A stretch of DNA of 27,481 bases from a virus: positions 1 through 27,481 of the IMG/VR virus record IMGVR_UViG_3300043640_000151, one strand, 5' to 3'. Positions 3,218 to 23,305 of the stretch are shown here, piece after piece. A program made the translations under genes and the position numbers. The stretch's first letter is position 1, and each line of letters begins with the position of its first letter. The notes beneath the pieces were generated by a model, which was not told where the DNA came from, did no database searches, and was given only the letters and a program-made list of their open reading frames with translations.

Positions 3218-3871
3218 TTATACCTTGGGGACTTTGCCGATGGGATTTGTCAGGAGCCCATAGCCAACACCGGCATCTGCTATGCCCCCCACGCCTTGCA
3301 GGATCGCCGCCATGTTATTGCCGGCCACCCCCGCCCCGGCCGCGCCCTGCAATTCCGTGCCCAGGACGCCGGTTGATCGAGACGACATGCCATTGAGTTG
3401 CTGGACCGTCTGCCCCAGGCGATTAAGCGCCAGGTTATTATCGAAGCCCATGCGCCCGTACGAGGAAACGTTGGCCAGGTTCTTGGCGTAATCCTTCCCC
3501 GTGGCCAATGCGCCGGCGAGTTGGCGTGACATGGAATCCGTCACTTCCTTGGGAGCCCCTGGATTCTGTGCCACGTACTCGGATCCCGTAGTCGCATCAG
3601 ACGGGGTAAGGTATTGCTGCACCTGGTCCGCCAGGGACTGTTGCTGCTTTACCTGTGAGCCTTTGTCGAACGTAGGCACGGCCGTATTGACCGCCGCCGT
3701 GCGTTGCTGGTCAATTTGCGCTTGCCTGACGCGCTCCGCATTCTGTGCGGCCGCCTGTTTCTGCTTGATTGCATTCTGGCTCACCATTGATGCGGCCGTG
3801 CCGCCTACCGAGGCAGCGGCAGAGACAGCGGCAGCGGCAGCCAGCCACGCGGGGATTTCGATTATGGGCAT
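3218..3871 (-). CDS. Putative internal virion protein with hydrophobic N-terminus (217 aa)
   Basis: A 217-aa protein. Residues 8-30 form an Ala-rich hydrophobic helix with small-residue spacing. A Gln/Ala-rich helical segment follows (about 33-60), and a second glycine/alanine-rich hydrophobic region lies near residues 170-205. The ATG at 3871 shares one base with the TAA of the upstream cupin gene. Size and composition resemble the small membrane-active ejection proteins of T7-like phages (gp14, about 196 aa), which insert in the host envelope during DNA entry. That link is by composition and position, not by a specific motif. Confidence 0.7.
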   Translation of the reverse strand: MPIIEIPAWLAAAAAVSAAASVGGTAASMVSQNAIKQKQAAAQNAERVRQAQIDQQRTAAVNTAVPTFDKGSQVKQQQSLADQVQQYLTPSDATTGSEYVAQNPGAPKEVTDSMSRQLAGALATGKDYAKNLANVSSYGRMGFDNNLALNRLGQTVQQLNGMSSRSTGVLGTELQGAAGAGVAGNNMAAILQGVGGIADAGVGYGLLTNPIGKVPKV

Positions 3872-18880: not shown

Positions 18881-18935
18881 TGTCCATCTAGTGTCCATCT
18901 AGTGTCCAACATGTGTCCATGTAGTGTCCATCTAG
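18881..18935 (+). repeat. Five tandem 11-bp iteron-like repeats
   Basis: Five contiguous units starting at 18881, 18892, 18903, 18914 and 18925. Three are exactly TGTCCATCTAG. The third is TGTCCAACATG and the fourth TGTCCATGTAG. TGTCCA is invariant. The 11-bp period places every unit on the same face of the helix, as in iteron origins that bind an initiator protein. An inverted copy of the core (ATGGACA) lies at 18984-18990. The AT-rich tract immediately to the left completes an origin-like layout. Confidence 0.75.
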
Positions 18936-19038
18936 TGCAAGAGCCGCATGGCTAGGGACTCTCAGAGCGTCCAAAAGAGGAAGATGGACACATGATAGAC
19001 ATTAGCAAGGGGGATTGTTAAGTGGTATTCTCATATCA

Positions 19039-19491: not shown

Positions 19492-19704
19492 ATCCCCACT
19501 CAATTCTCCCCACGAAATCTCATATACCGCGTTAACAAGATTTTTTCACGTCCTCGCTAAACCGTGAAAGTCACCCCGATTTGACCCCGATATAAATTTA
19601 TTTTTATATATGCTACTCGCATGGCATCCCTAGCATTCATGCGCCTCTCGACTGCCAAAACCTGAAACCAGTGGGTAAATGTTGTAATATCATCATAATA
19701 TCAC

Positions 19705-19734
19705 TTGACAACTAAAATGATATTAAATTAATAT
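19705..19734 (+). promoter_or_regulatory. Promoter-like sequence with palindrome upstream of ardC
   Basis: A perfect -35 hexamer TTGACA lies at 19705-19710. An AT-rich -10 region with TAATAT follows after about 18 bases. Overlapping it is a perfect inverted repeat ATATTAA-A-TTAATAT (19720-19734). A near-identical block recurs at 22420-22434, suggesting a shared regulator binding over the -10 region. Confidence 0.55.
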
Positions 19735-19746
19735 TATATACAGCAA

Positions 19747-19769
19747 CCGACCAAGCGGCACTTGGACAC
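19747..19769 (+). promoter_or_regulatory. Leader element copy 1 (ardC)
   Basis: CCAAG (19751-19755) and CTTGG (19761-19765) form a 5-bp hairpin with a 5-base loop, followed by ACAC. The same design occurs before four other genes or mini-ORFs downstream. Here the stem is CCAAG/CTTGG instead of CCAGG/CCTGG, so both arms changed together. Confidence 0.6.
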
Positions 19770-19786
19770 CCATCGGAGCAGCGAAA

Positions 19787-20656
19787 ATGACACAGGACAT
19801 CTATCAAATCGTGACGGACAAGATCATTGCACAACTGGAAGGCGGAGCCGTTCCCTGGATTAAACCCTGGACCAATAGCGGACACGGCGGAATGCCATTC
19901 AACGCCAGCACCGGCAAAGCGTATCGGGGGATCAATACCATGATCCTTTTTGCGCCAGCAGCTGGCGAAGGGTGGATGACCTACATCCAGGCGAAGGAAG
20001 CAGGCGGACAGGTACGCAAAGGCGAGAAAGGAAGCATGGTGGTTTTTTTCAAACCTTGGGCAGTGACAGACAAAAACGCACCGGCCGGAAGCGAAACCAC
20101 AACAAAAATAATTCCAATCCTGAAAAGCTACACGGTTTTTCACACGTCGCAAATCGATAACCTGGCGGAAAAATACTTGCCGAAAGCAGCAGCGCCAGTC
20201 GCGGAGAAAATCCGCATTGAAGCCGCTGAAGCATACCTGGCACAAGCGACCGTAAACCACGGCGGCGATCGTGCTTTCTATCGCCAGTCAACCGACGCCA
20301 TCCAATTGCCGATTCAATCGCAATTCAAATCTGTAGATGATTACTACGCCACGGCATTGCATGAGCTAACCCACTGGACCGGACACGCAGACCGATGCGC
20401 CCGCGAATATGGGAAGCGTTTTGGTGATCAAGCGTACGCACGGGAAGAACTGGTAGCCGAAATGGGTGCAGCGTTTTTATGCGGCAAAACCGGAATCGCC
20501 GGGCAATTGCAACATGCAAGCTATCTGCAATCATGGCTTACGGTACTGAAGGCGGACAAGCGTGCAATCGTGGTAGCAGCTGGCGCAGCACAGAAAGCAG
20601 CCGACTACATAACCGGATGGAAGGCGGAAGAAAGGGCGGAAGAAATCGCGGCTTAG
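19787..20656 (+). CDS. ardC: ArdC-type antirestriction protein (289 aa)
   Basis: The N-terminal domain (about residues 5-125) has the ArdC ssDNA-binding pattern: W-I-K-P-W, G-K-A-Y-R-G-I-N, and R-K-G-E-K-G-S near residues 77-83. The C-terminal half is a zincin metallopeptidase-like domain with H-E-L-T-H at 192-196 and a downstream E-L-V-A-E-M-G-A (E225 is the probable third ligand). Such proteins are carried by plasmids and phages to protect incoming DNA from restriction. It is the first gene of the rightward early region, which suits a protein needed on entry. Length and motifs are complete. Confidence 0.9.
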   Translation: MTQDIYQIVTDKIIAQLEGGAVPWIKPWTNSGHGGMPFNASTGKAYRGINTMILFAPAAGEGWMTYIQAKEAGGQVRKGEKGSMVVFFKPWAVTDKNAPAGSETTTKIIPILKSYTVFHTSQIDNLAEKYLPKAAAPVAEKIRIEAAEAYLAQATVNHGGDRAFYRQSTDAIQLPIQSQFKSVDDYYATALHELTHWTGHADRCAREYGKRFGDQAYAREELVAEMGAAFLCGKTGIAGQLQHASYLQSWLTVLKADKRAIVVAAGAAQKAADYITGWKAEERAEEIAA

Positions 20657-20663
20657 TTTTTCA

Positions 20664-20690
20664 GGTTATACCCCTCACCAGGGTATAACC
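20664..20690 (+). promoter_or_regulatory. Perfect 10-bp hairpin after ardC
   Basis: GGTTATACCC and GGGTATAACC pair perfectly around a 7-base loop. It starts eight bases after the ardC stop. No T-run follows, so it is not a classic terminator. It may stabilise or process the mRNA. Confidence 0.6.
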
Positions 20691-20704
20691 GGACGAATTT
20701 AAAT

Positions 20705-20726
20705 CGACCAGGCGACACCTGGACAC
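20705..20726 (+). promoter_or_regulatory. Leader element copy 2
   Basis: CCAGG (20708-20712), loop CGACA, CCTGG (20718-20722), then ACAC. It precedes a 13-codon mini-ORF. Confidence 0.6.
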
Positions 20727-20749
20727 CGCAACAAACGGAAAAAATCATC

Positions 20750-20791
20750 ATGAACCCATTCACCGATATGTTCACAATGGATGAAAAATAG
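20750..20791 (+). CDS. Possible 13-aa leader peptide
   Basis: A 13-codon ORF from ATG 20750 to TAG 20791 lies after leader copy 2, with an ACGGA-type ribosome binding site. It is followed by a 9-bp hairpin and the next leader element. It encodes an acidic, Met/Phe-containing peptide. It may be a leader peptide that couples translation to the following gene, or the remnant of a deleted gene between two repeated leaders. Confidence 0.3.
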   Translation: MNPFTDMFTMDEK

Positions 20792-20801
20792 CCTATCAAT
20801 T

Positions 20802-20823
20802 TATAGCCTGGTATCAGGCTATA
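20802..20823 (+). promoter_or_regulatory. Perfect 9-bp hairpin between leaders
   Basis: TATAGCCTG and CAGGCTATA pair perfectly around a GTAT loop. It lies between the mini-ORF stop and leader copy 3, the same relative place as the 10-bp hairpin behind ardC. Confidence 0.6.
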
Positions 20824-20838
20824 GATGGACGGACTAAA

Positions 20839-20862
20839 CCGACCAGGCGGATCCCTGGACAC
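20839..20862 (+). promoter_or_regulatory. Leader element copy 3
   Basis: CCAGG (20843-20847), a 6-base loop, CCTGG (20854-20858), then ACAC and a CGGAGAAAA ribosome binding site ahead of the ATG at 20879. Confidence 0.6.
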
Positions 20863-20878
20863 AACCGGAGAAAACAGC

Positions 20879-21076
20879 ATGAATGAATTTGAAAAAGACG
20901 GCTATCGCTACACGCCGGAAGAGTCTGTAACGCGAATCAAAACAAAAGGCGTGATCTGGTCAAGATGGAAAATCTTGCGTGAGCCTGGCAGCGGACAGGC
21001 TTTTGACGGCAGGGTATTCGTGCCGGATGATGAACAATTCCGCAGCGAAATTGTTGCAAGATTCAGCGACGATTGA
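20879..21076 (+). CDS. Hypothetical small protein (65 aa)
   Basis: ATG 20879 follows leader copy 3 with CGGAG nine bases upstream. The ORF can be opened to 20825 but that would translate the leader. The product is 65 aa and beta-rich: a Tyr-rich start (KDGYRYTPEES), a basic middle (KTKGVIWSRWKILRE), and an acidic C-terminus (FSDD). It may be a small SH3- or OB-like nucleic acid-binding protein judging only by size and charge pattern. I recognise no family. Confidence 0.65.
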   Translation: MNEFEKDGYRYTPEESVTRIKTKGVIWSRWKILREPGSGQAFDGRVFVPDDEQFRSEIVARFSDD

Positions 21077-21198
21077 CCTGCCTATCCGGCAGTAAGGAAA
21101 ATAAAATACACAATTTTCTGAGCTATCTATGCGGCAGTTTTTGAAGTGTAGCTTAATTTAAGTTTTTAGCAAAATCTAAAATAACTGGAGAAAAAATC

Positions 21199-21417
21199 AT
21201 GGCTACAGCTATAAAAAACACGCGGCGAGTGAACCGCATTGCGCAAGTCATAGCGCGCGACAATGGATCTACCGCGCAGGACATAAAGGACGGTGTAACC
21301 GATCTTTTGACCGACATCCGCCACTATTGCGACGCACATGGCCTGGACTATGGAGAGCGGGACAAATCCGCATACCATCACTACCAAGAGGAGGCACACG
21401 CAGCAAAGCGCAGTTAG
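21199..21417 (+). CDS. Hypothetical small protein (72 aa)
   Basis: ATG 21199 with GGAG nine bases upstream. The product is 72 aa and mostly helical, with a basic N-terminus (MATAIKNTRRVNRI) and a C-terminal half D-I-R-H-Y-C-D-A-H-G-L-D-Y-G-E. The latter pattern is one I associate with uncharacterised plasmid and integrative-element proteins. No hairpin leader element precedes it; its upstream DNA (21080-21190) is A/T-rich and featureless. Function unknown. Confidence 0.65.
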   Translation: MATAIKNTRRVNRIAQVIARDNGSTAQDIKDGVTDLLTDIRHYCDAHGLDYGERDKSAYHHYQEEAHAAKRS

Positions 21418-21427
21418 TACTTAGCGT

Positions 21428-21474
21428 ACTGCCAGCAATGGCAGTGCAGTAGGCACTGACCAGGCAGCACCTGG
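21428..21474 (+). promoter_or_regulatory. Hairpin plus leader element copy 4
   Basis: ACTGCCA/TGGCAGT (21428-21434, 21439-21445) is a perfect 7-bp hairpin with a 4-base loop just after the preceding stop. It is followed by CCAGG (21460-21464), CAGCA, CCTGG (21470-21474). This copy continues ATTA rather than ACAC. Confidence 0.55.
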
Positions 21475-21497
21475 ATTAATTAGAGAGGGAACGGAAA

Positions 21498-21788
21498 ATG
21501 AAGGCAATTATCCAGTATTGGACCGGCGATTTGAGCAACGGAAACATCAACCCATTCGCCAGCTATGAGGGCGCTTTTGCCGACTACAAAGAAATGGCTG
21601 AAAGTTGTGCCACCACTGATAGAGGCGACGAACCGGACGCAACGCCAGAAGAAGCCTTGGCTGAAAGCATGGCGTTTCACTACGTAGCGAAGGTAACGAC
21701 GACTTATGACGAGGACGGCAAAGTAGTAAAAGAAGACCAGGAAACGCTGGATGGCGGCGATCCTGATGCTTGTGGCTATAACGGGTAG
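21498..21788 (+). CDS. Hypothetical acidic protein (96 aa)
   Basis: ATG 21498 with a GAGGGA/CGGA ribosome binding site, behind leader copy 4. The product is 96 aa and very acidic (EPDATPEEALAES, TYDEDGKVVKEDQETLDGGDPDAC). The start is beta-like (MKAIIQYWTG). Small acidic early proteins of phages and plasmids often mimic DNA or inhibit host enzymes (for example antirestriction Ocr or ArdA types), but no such family is recognisable here. The call stays hypothetical. Confidence 0.7.
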   Translation: MKAIIQYWTGDLSNGNINPFASYEGAFADYKEMAESCATTDRGDEPDATPEEALAESMAFHYVAKVTTTYDEDGKVVKEDQETLDGGDPDACGYNG

Positions 21789-21799
21789 CGCCTAGCGGC

Positions 21800-21852
21800 A
21801 AGGGGGAAACCCCTTTCCAGTAGGTACCACCTACCTGGAGGCACCAGGACAC
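21800..21852 (+). promoter_or_regulatory. Hairpins plus leader element copy 5 (arms swapped)
   Basis: AAGGGG-GAAA-CCCCTT (21800-21815) and GTAGGT-ACC-ACCTAC (21820-21834) are adjacent perfect hairpins. They are followed by CCTGG-AGGCA-CCAGG-ACAC (21834-21852). Compared with the other copies the stem arms are swapped, but pairing and the GGACAC end are kept. Confidence 0.55.
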
Positions 21853-21873
21853 CTAAAACCACGGAGAAAACCC

Positions 21874-21921
21874 ATGCCAAAACACATCTATAAGTACGAC
21901 GACGAGAGCGGGCAATCATGA
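21874..21921 (+). CDS. Possible 15-aa leader ORF
   Basis: ATG 21874, with CGGAGAAAA about nine bases upstream, opens a 15-codon ORF. Its TGA overlaps an ATG at 21918 (ATGA) in the frame of the following gene. It may be a leader peptide or a shortened gene. It has the best leader of the group but almost no coding length. Confidence 0.3.
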   Translation: MPKHIYKYDDESGQS

Positions 21922-21974
21922 GATTCAATCAAATTGACGCTAAAATTTCAGCTGTTCCCAACATAGGAGCGACC

Positions 21975-22175
21975 ATGAACGAACTAGACCGACTCAAGAT
22001 AACTAACCAAGCATTATTGGAAGCATTGCGCCTGGCCGAAGCGGAATTGCGCCTGATAGTGGAAGAATGCCAGGACAATAACGAGACGCACAAAGGCTGT
22101 GAAGCCGCTGTGAGCATCGCGCAGCTGGCTATCCTGGAAGCAGGCGGGCAACCCATAGAATTCGGTGTCCAGTGA
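21975..22175 (+). CDS. Hypothetical helical protein (66 aa)
   Basis: I chose ATG 21975 because AGGAG lies six bases upstream. The frame is open to ATG 21918, which overlaps the mini-ORF stop but has no good ribosome binding site. The 66-aa product is nearly all helix with Leu/Glu/Ala heptad character (LLEALRLAEAELRLIVEE), then two cysteines, and probably self-associates. No family is recognised. Confidence 0.6.
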   Translation: MNELDRLKITNQALLEALRLAEAELRLIVEECQDNNETHKGCEAAVSIAQLAILEAGGQPIEFGVQ

Positions 22176-22183
22176 GGAAAAAA

Positions 22184-22372
22184 ATGAACATACCAAAAAT
22201 AGAGGTTACTTGGGACGAGGCTAGGCAAGTTGCGGATTTGCCCGAAGTCAGTGAGGCGTTCGGGAAATTGGCGGAAGTCACGACCGGAGATAATGCAATA
22301 GCCGCAATCCGCACCGTAATGCAGGCCATGCGAGACCCCGCTTACCACTTCAAAGACCATTCCGAGGCTTAG
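22184..22372 (+). CDS. Hypothetical small protein (62 aa)
   Basis: ATG 22184 with AGGA six bases upstream is preferred over the in-frame GTG 22172 overlapping the previous stop. The product is 62 aa and acidic-amphipathic (WDEARQVADLPEVSEAFGKLAEV), ending in a histidine/acidic tail. Function unknown. It is closely spaced behind the previous gene and probably shares its transcript. Confidence 0.6.
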   Translation: MNIPKIEVTWDEARQVADLPEVSEAFGKLAEVTTGDNAIAAIRTVMQAMRDPAYHFKDHSEA

Positions 22373-22419
22373 TCTCTCAATCCATGCCGGTTTAAACGCT
22401 GGCATGAGTGGACGGATTA

Positions 22420-22437
22420 ATGTTAAATTAATATCAC
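22420..22437 (+). promoter_or_regulatory. Second copy of AT-rich palindromic block
   Basis: ATGTTAAATTAATATCAC here matches the ATATTAAATTAATAT palindrome upstream of ardC at 14 of 15 positions. The AATATCAC end also resembles the sequence just before that promoter. The likely role is a common operator or promoter element for both plus-strand operons. Confidence 0.45.
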
Positions 22438-22472
22438 ACTTATATCAAAACGATACGAAAACAGGCAGGCTA

Positions 22473-22568
22473 GTGGCTCACAATAATGTTGTCGTCGAGC
22501 TGTTCAAGAAGGTCGGGCAATCCAGGCGATTTTTGGACTTCATGACTGGCAGGCGGGCAAACCGATAA
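22473..22568 (+). CDS. Doubtful 31-aa ORF
   Basis: A GTG-started frame of 31 codons with a basic, amphipathic product (VVELFKKVGQSRRFLDF). The ribosome binding site is weak (CAGGCAGG). It lies just after the AT-rich promoter-like block. It could be a small real peptide or a gene remnant. Confidence 0.2.
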   Translation: MAHNNVVVELFKKVGQSRRFLDFMTGRRANR

Positions 22569-22731: not shown

Positions 22732-22998
22732 ATGCAAACCATGAATATTTCATTACCCGATCCGCTCAAGAAATTTATAGATGATCGATTGCAGGAAGGC
22801 CGCTATAGCAGCGCCTCCGAGTTCATGCGCGAACTCATACGGGAGGAAGAGAAGCGATGGAAAGAGGATCGATTGGAAGCGTTTTTACTGGAAGGAATGG
22901 AAGGGCCAAGTACCCCTATGACCAAGCAGGATTGGGTAGACATTCGCGCCGAAGCTAAGGCAGGCGCGGAAAAACACAGGAAAGAGAATGCGGATTGA
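22732..22998 (+). CDS. parD: ParD-family antitoxin (88 aa)
   Basis: The start at ATG 22732 has a near-perfect AGGAGGT ribosome binding site, itself part of the short palindrome AGGT-AAC-ACCT. Residues 3-8 form the ribbon (MNISLP), followed by the two RHH helices (LKKFIDDRLQEG, then R-Y-S-S-A-S-E-F-M-R-E-L-I-R), a ParD/CC2985 hallmark. A flexible acidic C-terminus would wrap the toxin. It overlaps parE by 11 bases. It neutralises ParE and represses its own operon, keeping the replicon in the population. Confidence 0.88.
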   Translation: MQTMNISLPDPLKKFIDDRLQEGRYSSASEFMRELIREEEKRWKEDRLEAFLLEGMEGPSTPMTKQDWVDIRAEAKAGAEKHRKENAD

Positions 22999-23305
22999 AA
23001 AGCAGGCAAAAGCAAGGAGGGACTTGGTGCTATGTGTAACGCATCTTGAAATACATGCGAGGCATTCGGTAGCGGAGGATTTTGCGGATAGCCTGGAAGA
23101 ATCCTTTGCCTACCTGGCAGAATATCCAGAGGCGGCCCCTATATTACCCACAACCCGCGCCAGGATTGCCGGTTTACGCCACTGGCCTGTTAAGAATTTT
23201 CCAAAATACAGGATTTTCTACATGGTGCAGCGGGATAAGATTGTCATTATCCGTATCGGGCATTCCGCGCAAGATTGGTGGGGCATTCTAGGAATCACAT
23301 CATGA
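22988..23305 (+). CDS. parE: ParE-family toxin (105 aa)
   Basis: A RelE/ParE-fold protein of 105 aa starting inside the parD end, with AGGAAA upstream. Helical hairpin A-E-D-F-A-D-S-L-E-E-S-F-A-Y-L-A-E-Y-P is followed by the typical beta core with L-R-H-W-P-V-K-N-F-P-K-Y-R-I-F-Y and I-I-R-I-G-H-S-A-Q-D-W near residues 88-98. ParE toxins block DNA gyrase in classic cases. It looks full length and intact. Its TGA overlaps the recombinase start (ATGA), coupling toxin and recombinase translation. Confidence 0.88.
   Translation: MRIEKQAKARRDLVLCVTHLEIHARHSVAEDFADSLEESFAYLAEYPEAAPILPTTRARIAGLRHWPVKNFPKYRIFYMVQRDKIVIIRIGHSAQDWWGILGITS

Follow-up and report, generated by a model that had tools for sequence, protein, structure and literature searches.

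A two-part hairpin module between consecutive genes of an uncultured bacteriophage, a candidate intercistronic RNA element

The same small hairpin stands ahead of several consecutive plus-strand genes in a 27.5-kb virus record of IMG/VR, IMGVR_UViG_3300043640_000151, raising the question of what this repeated unit is and whether it belongs to the genes or to the borders between them. The record, from an uncultured bacteriophage, was analyzed over its full length and is called the window here. Genes for a tailed-phage terminase, a portal-like protein and a head protein lie on its minus strand. The plus-strand gene group opens with an ArdC-type anti-restriction gene (289 aa); we infer that the group is transcribed as one operon and, following the label given in the initial annotation, that it is early. 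Its description as a run of small ORFs, each led by a copy of the hairpin, applies in part: the first gene is ArdC, and no copy precedes the 72-aa gene at 21199.

The hairpin, which we term B, has a 5-bp stem with 20–27 nt between stem and ATG, and all five copies reported by the initial annotation are present in the window (Table 1). An anchored search pattern that demands perfect pairing matches the plus strand five times and the minus strand never; dinucleotide shuffles of the window give a mean of 0.05 matches (maximum 2 in 300). The unpaired letters beside the stem are conserved, ACC before and GGACAC after, and the loop is purine-rich. As had been described, four copies continue GGACAC, with GGATTA instead in the copy at 21460, and all five lead into RBS stretches of CGGA or CGGAG type. 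The two middle pairs of the stem and the loop are variable, and the RBS lies outside the hairpin.

Because this pattern was derived from the window's own copies, its fair and independent test is L003 (IMG/VR 3300049929_000018, 49 kb), the only close relative found, whose ArdC is 92% and terminase 83% identical to those of the window. L003 contains five matches where 0.01 are expected, four placed as leaders and one within a coding region. The leaders, at 1207, 1582, 2536 and 3398, each lie 13–25 nt before the next ATG (at 3398 the gene of annotated length may begin at the second ATG), and one of them has a new compensated stem, CCCGG/CCGGG. No further strong B copy was found across the whole 49 kb. 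Taking both records together, nine of nine strong copies lie 13–27 nt before an ATG, which bears out the enrichment upstream of start codons that the initial annotation had raised. The B2 leader is identical between the window and L003 at 35 of 35 nt, with the fourfold-degenerate sites of ArdC 48% identical; strong selection or recent exchange would each produce such identity. A perfect B-like hairpin, CCAAG-ACGGA-CTTGG-ACA, is found at L003 3608–3622 within the coding region behind the fourth leader, and may have arisen by chance or mark where a border once lay. In the window, ORFs of 13 and 15 codons (20750–20791 and 21874–21921) sit behind the B2 and B5 leaders and may be remnants. The beginning of the 13-codon ORF resembles that of the 62-aa gene at L003 2909 (MNPF-DM); a leader may thus persist after its gene has been lost.

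Is the stem of B maintained as a structure? Across eight distinct copies, 40 of 40 cells are paired (100%) with no broken pair. Two of the five pairs change on both sides, and three independent double changes can be read by hand: A-U to U-A, A-U to C-G and G-C to A-U. The covariation score and the number of double-change cells are reached by 1 of 500 shuffles, whereas the count of pairs changing on both sides is unexceptional (93 of 500). The original argument for a selected RNA structure is thereby upheld, on few pairs, with the score above chance and the pair count within it.

B is the 3′ half of a larger module. A longer hairpin of 44–50 nt, hairpin A, precedes every B copy except the first of its gene group; the unit as first described had missed it ahead of copies 2–5. 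A starts at the in-frame stop codon of the upstream gene in 13 of 13 copies. Type 1 copies read TAG-YYY-M-TC-A-[stem-loop]-G-GA-C-RRTTA and form 19–23 helix levels with regular 1x1 mismatches; the sequence of the upper stem differs between copies while pairing is nearly always kept. The two copies of type 2, ahead of B4 and B5, read CYTAGC...CAGTAGG, a different sequence of similar shape (20 and 16 levels). In six copies, all of type 1 and thus outside the two of type 2, 10 of 18 pairs change on both sides, which none of 500 shuffles reaches, and 94.4% of cells are paired, compared with 78.5% in shuffles and at most 48% in slid controls. Nine distinct copies give the same covariation picture, in an alignment that leans towards the model because it was fitted to it. 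Orthologous copies are compensated as well, for example U-A versus A-U between window 20654–20701 and L003 2481–2529. A covaries far more strongly than B and is the better supported of the two. In the whole-module fold of copy 3 an alternative structure is more favorable, and the two strands fold about equally well, so that these energies do not separate action as RNA from action as DNA. No U tract follows A, which for that reason was not scored as an intrinsic terminator, and the terminator-like sites on the plus strand of the window and L003 include none of the A or B copies. An intrinsic terminator, consisting of a GC-rich hairpin and a T run, was rejected, the T run being absent behind both A and B.

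Table 1. Predicted promoter and hairpins of the plus-strand gene group (window coordinates).
Feature	Position	Strand	Context	Sequence, scores and remarks
Sigma70-like promoter	19705–19734	+		TTGACA-18-TAATAT; consensus match only, 10 of 12; top plus-strand promoter-like score of the region
Hairpin B1	19751–19765	+	ArdC leader; no hairpin A ahead	CCAAG-CGGCA-CTTGG
Hairpin A, type 1	20654–20701	+	at TAG of ArdC	59.7 bits, model R2 (copy used in model); module fold z = -3.69
Hairpin B2	20708–20722	+	leader of 13-codon ORF	CCAGG-CGACA-CCTGG; 35-nt stretch identical to L003 2524–2558
Hairpin A, type 1	20789–20836	+	at TAG of 13-codon ORF	58.6 bits
Hairpin B3	20843–20858	+	leader of 65-aa ORF	CCAGG-CGGATC-CCTGG; 6-nt loop
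Hairpin A, type 2	21415–21458	+	at TAG of 72-aa ORF	fold -21.3 kcal/mol; module z = -3.69; no match to type 1 model
Hairpin B4	21460–21474	+	leader of 96-aa ORF	CCAGG-CAGCA-CCTGG, then GGATTA
Hairpin A, type 2	21786–21829	+	at TAG of 96-aa ORF	fold -20.8 kcal/mol; module z = -1.83, weakest copy
Hairpin B5	21834–21848	+	leader of 15-codon ORF	CCTGG-AGGCA-CCAGG; arms swapped
Hairpin A, type 1	22370–22419	+	at TAG of 62-aa ORF; end of gene group, no B behind	61.9 bits; fold z = -3.61

We asked how far the two hairpins extend beyond these phages. A gapped IMG/VR pattern of the A foot and linker, in which the upper stem was not required, matched twelve stretches, L003 and eleven others. Five of the latter (L078, L079, L081, L084 and L087) reach 45–54 bits with the A model, and their upper stem pairs well; the remaining six score 18 bits or less, or not at all. 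In the five, A starts at an in-frame TAG and ends 20–23 nt before an ATG. Each of these records has one A copy and no B in the stretches examined, indicating that A and B need not act together. The five are close in sequence and therefore contribute fewer independent changes than their number suggests. The initial annotation had looked to further copies in related elements: B is found in one related record and A in six other phage records, so that A is known from seven phage records and B from two related ones. A covarying hairpin with a stop codon in its foot, present between unrelated genes in seven phage records, would constitute a new structured RNA family. In Rfam, the window has no match at gathering score, and positions 19600–22500 have none at E up to 1. 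No similar DNA was found in phage and plasmid collections, nor by BLAST with single modules. Scanning a bacterial genome collection with the B pattern gave 18 matches, none judged a true relative; a terminase profile search of the genome collection gave no relative, and the A model found no copy in 399 genomes of one order, a result of little weight given that the host order was guessed and the filters were strict. B pattern scans of IMG/VR returned, outside L003, single matches mostly in long open frames; one of them, at L013 8301–8336, lies in the spacer ahead of an ORF, but its locus has no other copy, and it was set aside as probably chance. ArdC relatives in L004 and L005 (58–64% identical) have no such leader.

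What might the module do? With considerable confidence we regard it as a cis-acting RNA element; since its shape persists through changes of sequence, it probably serves as a signal by which messages are cut, stabilized or translated. By analogy we tentatively favor message processing, with a little less than even confidence, the module acting in cis between the cistrons of an early phage operon, on its mRNA. Of the two parts, A is a long imperfect hairpin with the stop codon of the upstream gene in its foot and an upper-stem sequence free to vary; B is short, with a stem of 5 bp, and behind it come GGACACC and the RBS that serves the next gene. A would be cut, or would block an exonuclease, in the manner of the RNase III hairpins of the T7 early genes, so that the message of each gene would be protected at its 3′ end and carry hairpin B at its 5′ end. 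The first gene would need no A, its B being already near the predicted transcription start. B1 begins 17 nt past the predicted promoter, the best of the region, and has no A, which suggests that B is the 5′-leader hairpin of primary as well as processed messages. Leader r1 of L003 has no A; a terminator-like site precedes it, and no good promoter was found for it. A ribosome terminating in the foot of A would unpair it, and the folding of A may therefore, speculatively, depend on translation of the upstream gene. Cutting, stabilization and an effect on translation we likewise infer.

In proposed function, the closest known elements would be the RNase III sites of T7, although we claim no membership among them. 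The helix of a T7 site is about two turns long; A, too, is a spacer hairpin between neighboring plus-strand genes, and its interrupted helix has about this length. Cuts by RNase III at five sites divide the polycistronic message of the T7 early region (PMC4858673). Like A, these R sites are irregular hairpins between consecutive early genes, upstream of the next RBS, one per junction and several in one early transcript (PMC4858673). Unlike them, A has a stop codon in its foot and is followed by a second short hairpin, and the likeness to RNase III sites would be one of shape and position. If the processing model is true, this locus would join T7 as another case in which RNA structure at gene borders partitions an early operon. 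A further step, which we consider unlikely, would be to see here an undescribed kind of two-part intercistronic RNA, in which a stop-keyed, translation-dependent hairpin and a start-keyed leader cut early messages, give them new ends and also mark the borders of early-gene exchange.

Alternatively, a phage or host RNA-binding protein could recognize hairpin B with its loop and the GGACACC tail and so switch several early genes together, with A only a stabilizer; this is the main rival reading, and the shared translational control suggested by the initial annotation could take this form. The distance of B from the ATG (13–27 nt), the conserved unpaired letters around its stem and the full conservation of the B2 leader between both phages are all what such a translational operator would predict. 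Still, we think it rather doubtful: neither the two middle pairs nor the loop is constant, one copy has its arms swapped, the RBS is not part of the hairpin, no candidate binding protein was identified, and A, the stronger structure, is left unexplained. The translational operators of T4 RegA and gp43 are a hairpin or site just upstream of the RBS, common to several early genes. B differs from these in not containing the RBS and in having no known binding protein. A leader regulated by CsrA/RsmA exposes GGA near the RBS, in a hairpin loop or as single strand; the GG of the GGA that follows B is taken up by stem pairing, but GGA is present in the RBS too.

In position and repetition, the closest elements in the open literature are SAS and ESAS of the Cluster K mycobacteriophages, which recur at start codons across numerous phage genes unrelated to one another; alongside SAS, ESAS form 17-bp imperfect inverted repeats with their own consensus, and a role in translation start has been proposed (PMC3203893). 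The sequence of SAS, GGGATAGGAGCCC, is fixed over 13 bp and stands immediately ahead of the start codon (PMC3203893), whereas the leaders here read CGGAGAAAA-type RBS stretches. Compared by eye, the leaders do not carry the 13-bp consensus, and we rejected and do not claim membership. The module also differs in having 5-bp arms (B) or about 20 levels (A), in its compensated changes, and in the tie of A to a stop codon.

To see whether the module belongs to the genes or to their borders, the window can be compared with L003. Their ArdC homology block (81.7%) runs from the ArdC leader to the ATG behind the next module, and the genes beyond it are unrelated; the modules alone match one another at 75–80% although the genes are unrelated. 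Almost every copy of A has its own upstream and downstream neighbors, and in L081 and L084 a relative of the w4 protein has, by eye, neither B nor A ahead. The module stays at the borders while the genes differ, indicating that it belongs to the borders and not to gene families. The suggestion that it travels with early genes is thus not supported as worded. Some junctions have no module (the 72-aa ORF at 21199 and the L003 genes at 2909, 3131 and 3856); hence not every gene requires it. The bounded homology block, the matches between unrelated genes and the changing neighbors of A would suit modules that serve as short homology for early-gene exchange, with regulation secondary. In mosaic phages, boundary sequences are short common sequences where homology between genomes begins and ends. 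Unlike those, the module keeps its pairing while its sequence changes. DNA homology needs no compensated pairs, yet the upper stem of A changes and still pairs, and exchange at the borders may be a by-product, making this reading decidedly unlikely. The module would also be a marker for gene exchange in early regions with anti-defense genes such as ArdC.

Action at the DNA level appears very improbable, be it as an internal promoter or operator, a palindromic protein site, or attC-like single-stranded DNA folded for a recombinase. The arm sequences differ between copies, which a sequence-specific DNA binder could hardly tolerate, even though the copies are palindromic, both strands fold about equally, operator-like inverted AT-rich repeats flank the gene group and a serine recombinase gene lies nearby. 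Promoter-like sites recur at no fixed place in the modules, and the internal-promoter reading was rejected on that ground. Integron attC core sites are absent, with no RYYYAAC in or within 15 nt of any of the 13 A copies and one lone GTTRRRY in a flank. That these are chance hairpins in GC-poor spacers, picked by eye, is scarcely credible: five-base stems are short and single B matches do arise by chance in large collections, but the shuffle counts, the covariation and the independent relative contradict it, and the upper stem pairs well in another five records, which were picked up through foot and linker only.

Several other features lie in and around the gene group. An AT-rich inverted pair, TGATATTAAATTAATATTA (89% complementary), brackets the group at 19718–19736 and 22418–22436, one copy overlapping the promoter ahead of ArdC; the two copies may be operators to which an early repressor binds. 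Four to five 11-bp direct repeats, TGTCCATCTAG, occupy 18881–18937 and 18982–19005 with an inverted copy nearby, and the matching place in L003 (about 258–312) holds a comparable array built from another 11-bp-like unit, GATCATCTTAT. Both arrays look iteron-like and are perhaps a replication origin or a partition site. A ParD/ParE-like toxin-antitoxin pair at 22732–23305 is 46% and 41% identical to the pair at the same place in L003.

Two units resembling type I-F CRISPR repeats, 46 nt apart, are found at window 21078–21138 (minus strand) and at L081 1037–1110 (plus strand), on the strand opposite the genes and upstream of the 72-aa ORF. Against Rfam CRISPR-DR4 (cut-off 35), the L081 units score 33.1 and 29.0 bits and the window units 15.1 and 13.3 bits, one stem being broken. 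The window and L081 regions align with a score of 73, compared with at most 31 in shuffles. Solitary CRISPR repeat units offer a comparison (PMC10651486), and by analogy with these the units are possibly an RNA anti-CRISPR or a mini-array.
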